A stretch of 64,000 nt of DNA, from assembly GCF_017592395.1 (NCBI RefSeq), contig NZ_JAGFOU010000006.1:62001-126000 (forward strand), written 5' to 3'. Source of the stretch: Actinomyces bowdenii (GTDB lineage Bacteria > Actinomycetota > Actinomycetes > Actinomycetales > Actinomycetaceae). Below the pieces are notes generated by a model that worked only from the letters and a program-made list of their open reading frames with translations, searched no databases and had not been told where the DNA came from. The position numbers and the translations under genes were made by a program. Position 1 is the first letter of the stretch. The number at the start of each line of letters is the position of its first letter. Shown in pieces: positions 14,663 to 16,493 of the stretch.

Positions 14663-14753
14663 CCTTCGCGCGTCATTTCAAGGTTCTCCTGGGACGCGAC
14701 GATTCGACGATCACACGGAATCGTTGCTACAGTTCAACCCGCACAACGCGCAT

Positions 14754-14815
<62 letters not shown>

Positions 14816-14825
<10 letters not shown>

Positions 14826-14873
14826 CCCCTCGGAAGCCCCGGCCCCCACGGCCGGGGCTCCGTCGTTCCCCGG
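14816..14873. repeat. Left direct repeat, putative attL at tRNA-Asn
   Basis: 58 bases covering the last ten bases of tRNA-Asn and the following hairpin. It matches 16436-16493 at 56 of 58 positions by eye, same orientation. Duplication of a tRNA 3' end is the classical mark of site-specific integration. Confidence 0.8.
14835..14859 (+). terminator. tRNA-Asn terminator hairpin
   Basis: AGCCCCGGC / GCCGGGGCT 9-bp stem with a 7-base loop, 10 bases after the tRNA. A copy with one G-U wobble lies at 16455-16479 in the right direct repeat. Confidence 0.75.
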
Positions 14874-15042
14874 ACCGGTCGGGCTGCCACCAGTCACGAG
14901 TCAGGGAATGCCACGTGTGCGGGTTAGCGACATGGGCCCTGACACGGCTGTAGTGCCGACAGTCCAGGAGGCCTCGGACCTATCCGGGACGGCCTCAACC
15001 ACCCGCCATAGCGCGGTGGAGGCCGGCCCTTGTCATGCTCTC

Positions 15043-15870
15043 TCAGGCGCGGACAGCGCGGCCCAGTGATACCGCAACCACCCTCTTGAACTCCCTGTCG
15101 AAGTCCGACTGCGTCCGGTAGGCCAGGACCTGTCCGACCTCTCGGAGATCCGCCAGGACGGTGCTGTCCCAATCCTCGGTGCTCTCCACGACCGCGTACC
15201 TGCGCTCCTGGTCGATCTGCGCCCGGCTGAACATCGTGAAGCAGCGCTCGAAGGCCCGCTCGCGCGCAGTGTCGTCACGACCGCCCACTGCCTGCAGAAC
15301 GGCCAGCGTGCTCCCGTTGCGCTCGATGGAGGCGGTGACCCGCTTGGAGCGGCCCGACTGCAGGGTCAGGCTCCGCCCCCTGGTCAACCCGCGATCGACT
15401 AGTTCTGCGCTGTTGAGAAGGAACCCGATGCGCTTGCCGATCTTGGTCGCGAAGCGCTCTCCACCTTCGCGCTCGCGGATGAAGGCCAGGCCCTCGGCGC
15501 GCACGGCGGCCAGCGCGACGAGGTTGAGGGCGTCACCCAGACTGGTGTCGGTGGCCCATGCGGTGATCTCGCCATCCTCAGGCCCCTGATCCCCAGGGAT
15601 GAAGTCCCCTGCGGGCCGTGCGAGCTTCCGCCAGGCCTCGGCGAACGTCGGGCTCTCGATGGCGGCGCCCTGGGTGTGGAGGTTGGACATGGTCGAACCG
15701 TCGTCGGTGATCATCCAGCCCCCGGCGGCACGGCGCACAGACAGGACCACTCCATCGCCGTCGCTGTAGTAGGCGGGCATCCACACGATGAACCCGTCGG
15801 GGGTCTGAAGGGCTTCGACCCCATCGTTGATGGCTGAGAGGTACTTGCTGGTCAGTGTCTTGACATCCAT
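15043..15870 (-). CDS. DUF1828-like protein of the micro-island
   Basis: 275 residues from the ATG at 15870, preceded by GGAGATGAGG. The N-terminal about 100 residues resemble the DUF1828 domain: MPAYYSDGDGVVLSVRR, then GGWMITDDGSTMSNLHTQG (ITDDG about residues 54-58), a pattern often associated with phage or island genes of unknown role. The C-terminal part (ERCFTMFSRAQIDQERRYAV, then VLADLREVGQVLAYRTQSD) may be a second domain, perhaps nuclease-like or ligand-binding, but I see no certain catalytic motif. It starts 5 bases after the preceding gene, so the pair is an operon. Family assignment rests on memory of the motif, not a search. Confidence 0.7.
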   Translation of the reverse strand: MDVKTLTSKYLSAINDGVEALQTPDGFIVWMPAYYSDGDGVVLSVRRAAGGWMITDDGSTMSNLHTQGAAIESPTFAEAWRKLARPAGDFIPGDQGPEDGEITAWATDTSLGDALNLVALAAVRAEGLAFIREREGGERFATKIGKRIGFLLNSAELVDRGLTRGRSLTLQSGRSKRVTASIERNGSTLAVLQAVGGRDDTARERAFERCFTMFSRAQIDQERRYAVVESTEDWDSTVLADLREVGQVLAYRTQSDFDREFKRVVAVSLGRAVRA

Positions 15871-15875
15871 AGGGA

Positions 15876-16418
15876 TCACCTCATCTCCTCCTTGGGTGGG
15901 TCGACCCATGTCAGTCCGCTGGCGTCCACGTGGCACAGATCGGCGAACGCTAGGAACATCTTGCACCGCTCATCGTTGGTCACGCTAGAGGAGATCCGGC
16001 ACTCCGGGAACCCCTCCGCCGCCACGCACCGCTCTGACCCGTCAGCAGGCTGGTAGGTGTGCATATGGGTGCACCTGCCCAGGCCGTGTCCGTTGCCGTG
16101 GACGCAGACCCGCCGAATGGGGACCGCGGATCCCAGGTAGATCAGGCGGACCGCCCAGGGGCGCGGTGTGTTGTACTGCATCTGCAGGTAGGCCCCTTCC
16201 ACCTCGATCGTGCCGGTGATGACCTCGACGTGGTTGCGCACGTCCTTGGGCTTGCTGGAGGTCCAGGTCATCATTCCCTCAGTACGGGCGGCGGAGCCGT
16301 CCCCCAGCAGGTGGGCCATGACCCCAGGCGGGATGACTCCAGCCGCATGCCTCGCACGTTCTCGTCGCACCACGTCTGCCTCCCACATCTCCCGCAGGTA
16401 AGAAGTTGGGTCCGTCAC
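15876..16418 (-). CDS. Unknown Cys/His-rich protein of the micro-island
   Basis: 180 residues from a GTG at 16418, the only reasonable start in frame; no good ribosome-binding site is visible. The middle is a beta-rich domain (HVEVITGTIEVEGAYLQMQY), followed by a cluster that looks metal-binding: Cys105, His107, His111, Cys116, His118 and His120 within VCVHGNGHGLGRCTHMHTYQ. Four more cysteines follow in the C-terminal 55 residues. The H-x-H motif recalls small proteins now grouped as DUF6978, which I believe may neighbour DUF1828 genes, but this is tentative. First gene of the two-gene operon; its start lies 18 bases from the right repeat. Confidence 0.65.
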   Translation of the reverse strand: MTDPTSYLREMWEADVVRRERARHAAGVIPPGVMAHLLGDGSAARTEGMMTWTSSKPKDVRNHVEVITGTIEVEGAYLQMQYNTPRPWAVRLIYLGSAVPIRRVCVHGNGHGLGRCTHMHTYQPADGSERCVAAEGFPECRISSSVTNDERCKMFLAFADLCHVDASGLTWVDPPKEEMR

Positions 16419-16435
16419 CGTAGAACGATCATAGG

Positions 16436-16493
16436 GCCGCAGGAGCCCCTCGGAAGCCCCGGTCCCCACGGCCGGGGCTCTGTCGTTCCCCGG
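16436..16493. repeat. Right direct repeat, putative attR
   Basis: Copy of the tRNA-Asn 3' end and terminator, differing from 14816-14873 at two positions (one in the hairpin stem, one after it). It lies between the micro-island and def. Confidence 0.8.

Follow-up and report, generated by a model that had tools for sequence, protein, structure and literature searches.

A two-gene insert at tRNA-Asn in Actinomyces bowdenii: a probable prophage or satellite relic with a putative divergent PDC-M24-like pair

The described system closest to the locus reported here is PDC-M24, a candidate defence system in the PADLOC collection, in which two genes lie on one strand with A directly upstream of B. 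By scanning its models we found that PDC-M24A corresponds to DUF6978 and PDC-M24B to DUF1828. PDC systems are called unpublished candidates in the part of PMC11811056 that names them. The literature that we searched says almost nothing on the pair: DUF1828 and DUF6978 are rarely named, and PDC-M24 is not named. TumE–TumA is likewise a two-gene operon, in which the toxin TumE lowers translation and is neutralised by TumA; in most cases TumE is the downstream gene of the two (PMC10584680). A further comparison is offered by prophage remnants at tRNA genes, from which the phage body has been lost. The locus of A. bowdenii shares the two-gene, one-strand order of PDC-M24 and, as in that system, mobile elements carry both genes; it differs in being cut down to attachment (att) sites and two genes.

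We analysed a window of 64,000 nucleotides, the whole stretch of DNA considered here, in whose coordinates the locus consists of the following features:

14753–14828, plus strand: tRNA-Asn (gtt), the integration target, intact (ARAGORN).
14816–14873, plus strand: left 58-bp repeat (attL), tRNA 3′ end and terminator, from repeat comparison; a single copy in the relative G024.
14874–15042, no strand: spacer between attL and gene B, the integrase position in relatives and phages, here without an integrase fragment.
15043–15870, minus strand: gene B, DUF1828 protein of 275 aa, PDC-M24B-like by Pfam and PADLOC matches.
15876–16373, minus strand: gene A, putative divergent DUF6978-like protein of 165 aa (preferred start), from profile comparison, with no direct family match.
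16428–16433, minus strand: TATGAT, a possible −10 hexamer just inside attR, read by eye and weak.
16436–16493, plus strand: right 58-bp repeat (attR), from repeat comparison.

The two copies of the repeat are identical at 56 of 58 bases with a spacing of 1620, in agreement with the preliminary description of this DNA, which had taken them as the signature of integration at a tRNA gene. The next-best match within the window reaches 35/58, and 20 simulated windows gave at most 36/58. A spread of the repeat over many tRNA terminators, which that description had named as a counter-indication, was not seen: the genome holds one further match outside the two copies, of 31 bp at 87%. Comparison with G024, whose def protein is the closest among the relatives (96%), revealed the empty site directly. 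This genome has a single copy of the 58-bp site and no match to gene A or gene B; it aligns with the left flank over 852 bp at 88.7%, through the tRNA and the first repeat, and with the right flank over 113 bp at 79.6% from the second repeat and then over 550 bp at 94.5% into def. With both flanks matched around a single repeat, the sequence between the copies is an insertion at tRNA-Asn.

Gene A was matched in 3 of 149 genomes searched, own included (own, G034 and G041), and gene B in six of the 149, the match in G022 being weak and covering 45 residues. Presence of both genes in all relatives, the other counter-indication named beforehand, was therefore not seen either. Class-wide, the A profile found one of 394 genomes, our own, and the B profile four. 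That both genes are vertical and were lost in relatives, the repeat having arisen by chance or by terminator duplication, could draw on the tRNA–def interval, which varies in the genus through gene-order changes unrelated to integration. We regard this as scarcely credible in view of the empty site, a repeat that includes the tRNA end, the lower G+C content of the insert (66.1% vs 71.8% for the window) and the scarcity of gene A.

Between attL and attR a simple gene caller found the two minus-strand genes only, the stop of gene A lying 5 bases before the start of gene B. As already described, no integrase lies between the copies: the best tblastn match from seven integrase sequences covered 10 residues at E 0.031. 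Having no integrase ORF, the insert lacks the own recombinase that distinguishes an autonomous integrative element; no phage structural gene was found in it, and a promoter and terminator scan of the locus returned no site. Our search of the genome, which covered tyrosine recombinases, found two, beside a dprA-like and a parA-like gene; judged by these neighbours they are Xer-like, presumably XerC and XerD. The element thus appears stranded, given an insert free of integrase traces and a genome whose two tyrosine recombinases are Xer-like. The longest reading of gene A inside the repeats starts at 16418 and gives 180 aa. The start at 16373 seems likelier: GGGAGG precedes it by 5 bases, and in A. 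israelii GGAGG stands at the same distance upstream of the corresponding residues.

Gene B was correctly described as DUF1828-like: it exceeds the Pfam cut-off for DUF1828 (PF08861) with 28.2 bits vs 22, over residues 32–75, and matches PDC-M24B at E 1.9e-6 and 25.6 bits, judged by E-value and not by PADLOC's own thresholds. It differs from many phage B proteins, and from PDC-M24, in having no Pfam match to DUF1829. Searches with gene B by tblastn in phages and in plasmids gave nothing, and viral scans with gene B and with the B proteins of two loci from our phylum survey (L152 and L155) confirmed relatives of none of them. Both reading frames are open, with dN/dS for the two genes of 0.20–0.32 vs A. 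israelii and 0.41–0.57 vs A. bovis, rough figures that average over all lineages and rest on far-diverged synonymous sites. Structure models were poor (mean pLDDT 51.8 and 46.0), too low for use. In G015 a fragment of DUF1828 that lacks a gene A partner (L132, 9818–10147) immediately precedes a very large protein that is repeat-rich and, by eye, TPR-like.

Gene A had been called Cys/His-rich; profile comparison instead points to a divergent homologue of DUF6978. The profile-database search proposed for both proteins found DUF1828 for B, while A had no match in Pfam, NCBIfam, PHROGs or PADLOC. With DUF6978 (PF22398), gene A gave no match, its A. israelii homologue stayed below Pfam's cut-off at E 0.33, and both proteins lacked a match to the PDC-M24A model. 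The partner immediately upstream of a DUF1828-like gene in G111 reaches E 0.066 with DUF6978, also below cut-off, and E 0.0013 with PDC-M24A. G433 and G403 have, by eye, a similar ORF upstream of a DUF1828-like gene, these partners having no Pfam match to DUF6978. We then aligned a six-row group of these proteins (Actinomyces and G111/G433/G403) with 15 DUF6978 proteins by hhalign and obtained 93.4%, E 2.5e-7 and a score of 48.0, compared with at most 15.6 in 60 column shuffles; the three Actinomyces rows alone gave 63.8% and E 6.6e-5. By this measure gene A is a DUF6978 homologue, and genes A and B together form what we read as a divergent PDC-M24-like pair, different from PDC-M24 in that its A protein has diverged beyond the reach of the models for PDC-M24A and DUF6978. 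A PDB sequence search with the DUF6978 profile returned one match at chance level (E 0.66). No further copy of the pair was found in the own genome.

We examined tRNA-Asn in 49 genomes of the genus, all of which have this gene. In 11 genomes def follows within 171–413 bp on the same strand, and 24 have def at the opposite side of the tRNA; the remaining loci comprise 11 longer intervals contained in one fetched locus, prophages in G018 and G008 and a contig break in G006. Second att copies were sought in the 49 tRNA loci up to ~15 kb, and farther away through partial tRNA-end matches and in seven elements. In three genomes the tRNA end recurs at a distance (~42 kb in G018, ~36 kb in G008, ~39 kb in G045), with phage-type genes inside all three elements and an integrase-type gene at the far end in G018 and G008, the two whose far ends were inspected. 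Smaller islands occur in G030 (~5 kb) and G033 (~3.6 kb, with a repeat only 74% identical); in G037 the element is a shrunken prophage, several kb long, that has HTH, DUF4041-type and integrase genes and for which no second repeat was found. The suggestion that relatives would hold other cargo at this tRNA gene is borne out by these prophages, small islands and the shrunken prophage: tRNA-Asn is an integration hotspot in the genus, again by direct observation.

The G037 remnant offers the closest comparison for a reduced element, with the same tRNA-Asn target and the phage body lost. The insert in A. bowdenii differs from it by the absence of integrase and phage genes, by another start of the att core and by having kept only the PDC-M24-like pair. 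Its repeat starts at position 64 of the tRNA vs 32–44 in the other five elements, so a different integrase probably made the 58-bp repeat and the ancestor would not be among those phages. Not every long tRNA–def interval is an island. We rejected G043 and G019, where dnaG-like and dgt-like genes (names by reading) reflect gene order, and G035, G048 and G004, where a common two-gene segment does; G001, G007 and G002 have 1.4–2.4 kb between tRNA and def, in which a second repeat was not found.

Two side observations concern these elements. (i) Within the first 400 bp after tRNA-Asn, G018, G030, G045, G033 and G037 (L126, L105, L102, L091 and L092) have a small HTH, repressor-like gene that reads toward the tRNA and ends inside it, with a protein end of ..PRLDSNQQPSD. 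When the two element ends are joined, in G018 and in G030, this protein end becomes different and longer, so that integration would alter the repressor, a situation that we liken to the integration-dependent immunity of mycobacteriophages. (ii) In the shrunken prophage of G037 (L092), 2.7–3.5 kb after the tRNA, two ORFs match two parts of PADLOC PDC-S33 (E 2.5e-39 and 4.4e-8) and resemble one broken RelA/SpoT-type gene, a name given by reading.

Relatives of the pair occur in two other Actinomyces species. A prophage at tRNA-Arg carries it in A. bovis; counted from the tRNA, the genes are the integrase, a small gene, an HExxH gene (ImmA-type, by eye), B and A, and the last two have the arrangement and strand with respect to the tRNA that they have in the window. 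The single relative from a viral scan with gene A, L137, proved to be this A. bovis prophage itself (100% identity over 13,898 bases); tblastn with gene A in phages found nothing. In A. israelii the pair is at a contig end, beside a gene that we take to be of DUF4041/T5orf172 type. Gene A is frameshifted in both species and B of A. israelii lacks ~50 residues, which indicates that the pair decays readily elsewhere. Each frameshift (A. bovis, L130 8887–9400; A. israelii, L131 1082–1595) is a +1 shift around own residues ~66–74 at different codons. We considered programmed frameshifting, but the extra bases are some codons apart and share no slippery motif by eye, so that decay is likelier. Separately, an A. 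bovis contig of 8324 bases (L129) repeats the integrase side of the prophage and continues into lysin-type genes instead of tRNA-Arg, with 185 bp including the tRNA end matching L130 at 99.5%; it looks like an excised circular or tandem form of the pair-carrying prophage.

We next consider the pair in phages. The DUF1828 proteins of L152 and L155 found 17 and 2 phage records by tblastn, one of them common to both, giving 18 in total, which include two pairs of duplicates and of which eight were opened. A DUF6978 gene lies directly upstream of DUF1828 in all eight, always above Pfam's cut-off (six genes and two unannotated ORFs that were read and then scanned). In seven of the eight, DUF1828 is followed by an integrase at a distance of 64 bp to 1.4 kb; five have a same-strand gene upstream that is annotated as a repressor or regulator. 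The opened records include one Streptococcus satellite phage and one haloarchaeal virus, the latter having no integrase in the region opened. Both the family links and the position of such pairs beside phage integrases were seen directly. In Streptococcus phage and satellite records we noted that the DUF6978 genes upstream of DUF1828 are unannotated at 2741–3480 of L166 (Javan357) and 2846–3515 of L169 (Javan249). IMG/VR yielded five loci with both genes (three A proteins scanned), and there the pair can also lie beyond the integrase or beside lysis genes (L176 and L175).

Other genomes show a wider range of settings. In the phylum survey DUF1828 was found at E 0.01 in 14 of 396 genomes, own included. 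The gene upstream exceeds the DUF6978 cut-off in L151, L152, L153 and L155 and stays below it in L154 (E 0.0068); in L150 it has no DUF6978 match and in L160 it is apparently broken, by eye. A DUF6978-like partner was missing, by eye, from six of the 14 loci, and an integrase adjoins the pair in L153 and L155. Plasmids with the pair include an IncP conjugative plasmid, an Acetobacter plasmid (gene A being an unannotated ORF) and a haloarchaeal plasmid, and in G403 and G433 the pair occupies chromosomal places. As a matter of annotation, the IncP plasmid pRSB223 (L187, 2986–4187) carries an intact PDC-M24 pair recorded as two hypothetical proteins.

On this evidence we favour the reading that the locus is a relic of a prophage or satellite that kept its lysogeny cargo, a divergent PDC-M24 branch, and consider it likely as regards both origin and identity. 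The micro-island of the preliminary description would then most simply be a shrunken prophage or satellite rather than a self-contained unit. On this reading, the 3′ end of tRNA-Asn would have been the target of a temperate phage or of a phage satellite whose attachment core brought the tRNA end and the terminator along, so that the tRNA remained functional and the 58-bp repeat arose. Deletions, which we infer, would have taken away the integrase and everything else in the element as far as ~60 bp before gene A, and the lysogeny cargo of two genes, the DUF6978-like A and then the DUF1828 gene B, would have stayed intact and stranded without an integrase. Two points bear on the strength of this reading: the case for a phage origin comes from the relatives, as the insert has neither a phage structural gene nor an integrase trace, and the right end of the presumed deletion would have to lie no more than a few dozen bases from that att site.

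An alternative is a complete two-gene cassette, integrating and excising as such, that was moved in trans by a phage or satellite integrase recognising the 58-bp ends, with no deletion at all. The near-identical ends, the two intact genes with inner edges close to them, the clean empty site and the presence of the pair in satellite phages would all fit. This is nevertheless improbable, since the genome has no second copy of the pair and, in the search described above, no phage tyrosine integrase, small cassettes like the two-gene insert were not seen at any of the 49 tRNA-Asn sites, and in A. bovis and phages the related pairs sit inside larger elements.

For the relic, the function of the pair is again a part that we infer. 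The pair would protect the lysogen from other phages, with A as the effector and B as a partner or control subunit, and the host would keep it after decay of the phage. Protection is favoured by the place of the pair among lysogeny genes, by its plasmid and satellite carriers and by its status as a PADLOC candidate. The preliminary description had proposed defence or stress cargo; the pair does correspond to PDC-M24, which is itself only a candidate, and we regard a defence role as about an even call. In most phages opened, the pair lies between the repressor and the integrase, often beside an ImmA-type metalloprotease gene, and this could also be taken to mean that A and B of the same relic serve lysogeny control or prophage stability, through repressor, integrase or induction. 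We find this unlikely: the pair also occurs on an IncP conjugative plasmid and on a haloarchaeal plasmid with no phage gene in view, such a role is hard to see at the chromosomal places of G403 and G433, and the pair in A. bowdenii is open without a phage.

A lead on the activity of gene A came from TumE. The DUF6978 protein of the Haloarcula plasmid pNYT2, whose gene is directly followed by DUF1828, scores 64.3 bits with DUF6978 and 24.7 bits with TumE (PF20126; cut-off 23.4), and that of the Halorubrum virus Humcor1 reaches E 0.0028 with TumE, below the cut-off. In the reverse direction, four TumE proteins gave no match to DUF6978. Comparison of 8 TumE with 15 DUF6978 rows by hhalign gave only 10% probability and E 0.0032, above all 60 shuffles, in an alignment that pairs the R-x-D, H and H-x-H positions; first checks with four TumE rows had given 2.8% and 5.9%. 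Leaving out the two haloarchaeal rows reduced the value to 0.4%, reached by 7 of 60 shuffles, and the gene A group gave 0.1% with TumE, reached by 16 of 60. TumE itself was found in none of 198 genomes of the order and in 4 of 198 of the phylum, own genome not among these. A TumE-like fold for the DUF6978 family is plausible on these comparisons. The locus differs from TumE–TumA in that gene A itself showed no similarity to TumE in the profile comparison, DUF1828 is a family other than TumA, and the gene order is reversed. As the Haloarcula protein passes both cut-offs, we raised our estimate for a toxin role of gene A from quite unlikely to somewhat less so; the raise was held back by the drop without the two haloarchaeal rows, and such a role stays doubtful.

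These results link a remnant of two genes, so far unnamed, with a candidate defence pair, place the habitat of this pair beside the integrases of temperate phages and a satellite, and add to its family a divergent gene A of a kind that present models miss. As a more speculative proposal, and one that we would rather bet against, DUF6978–DUF1828 may combine a toxin of the TumE superfamily with a new kind of partner and act in superinfection defence on phages, satellites, plasmids and archaeal viruses; hosts would keep the pair after the phage has decayed, and the locus of A. bowdenii would be a minimal captured copy, made up of att sites and two genes. The protein that exceeds the cut-offs of both DUF6978 and TumE offers a simple and concrete toxicity test for the family.
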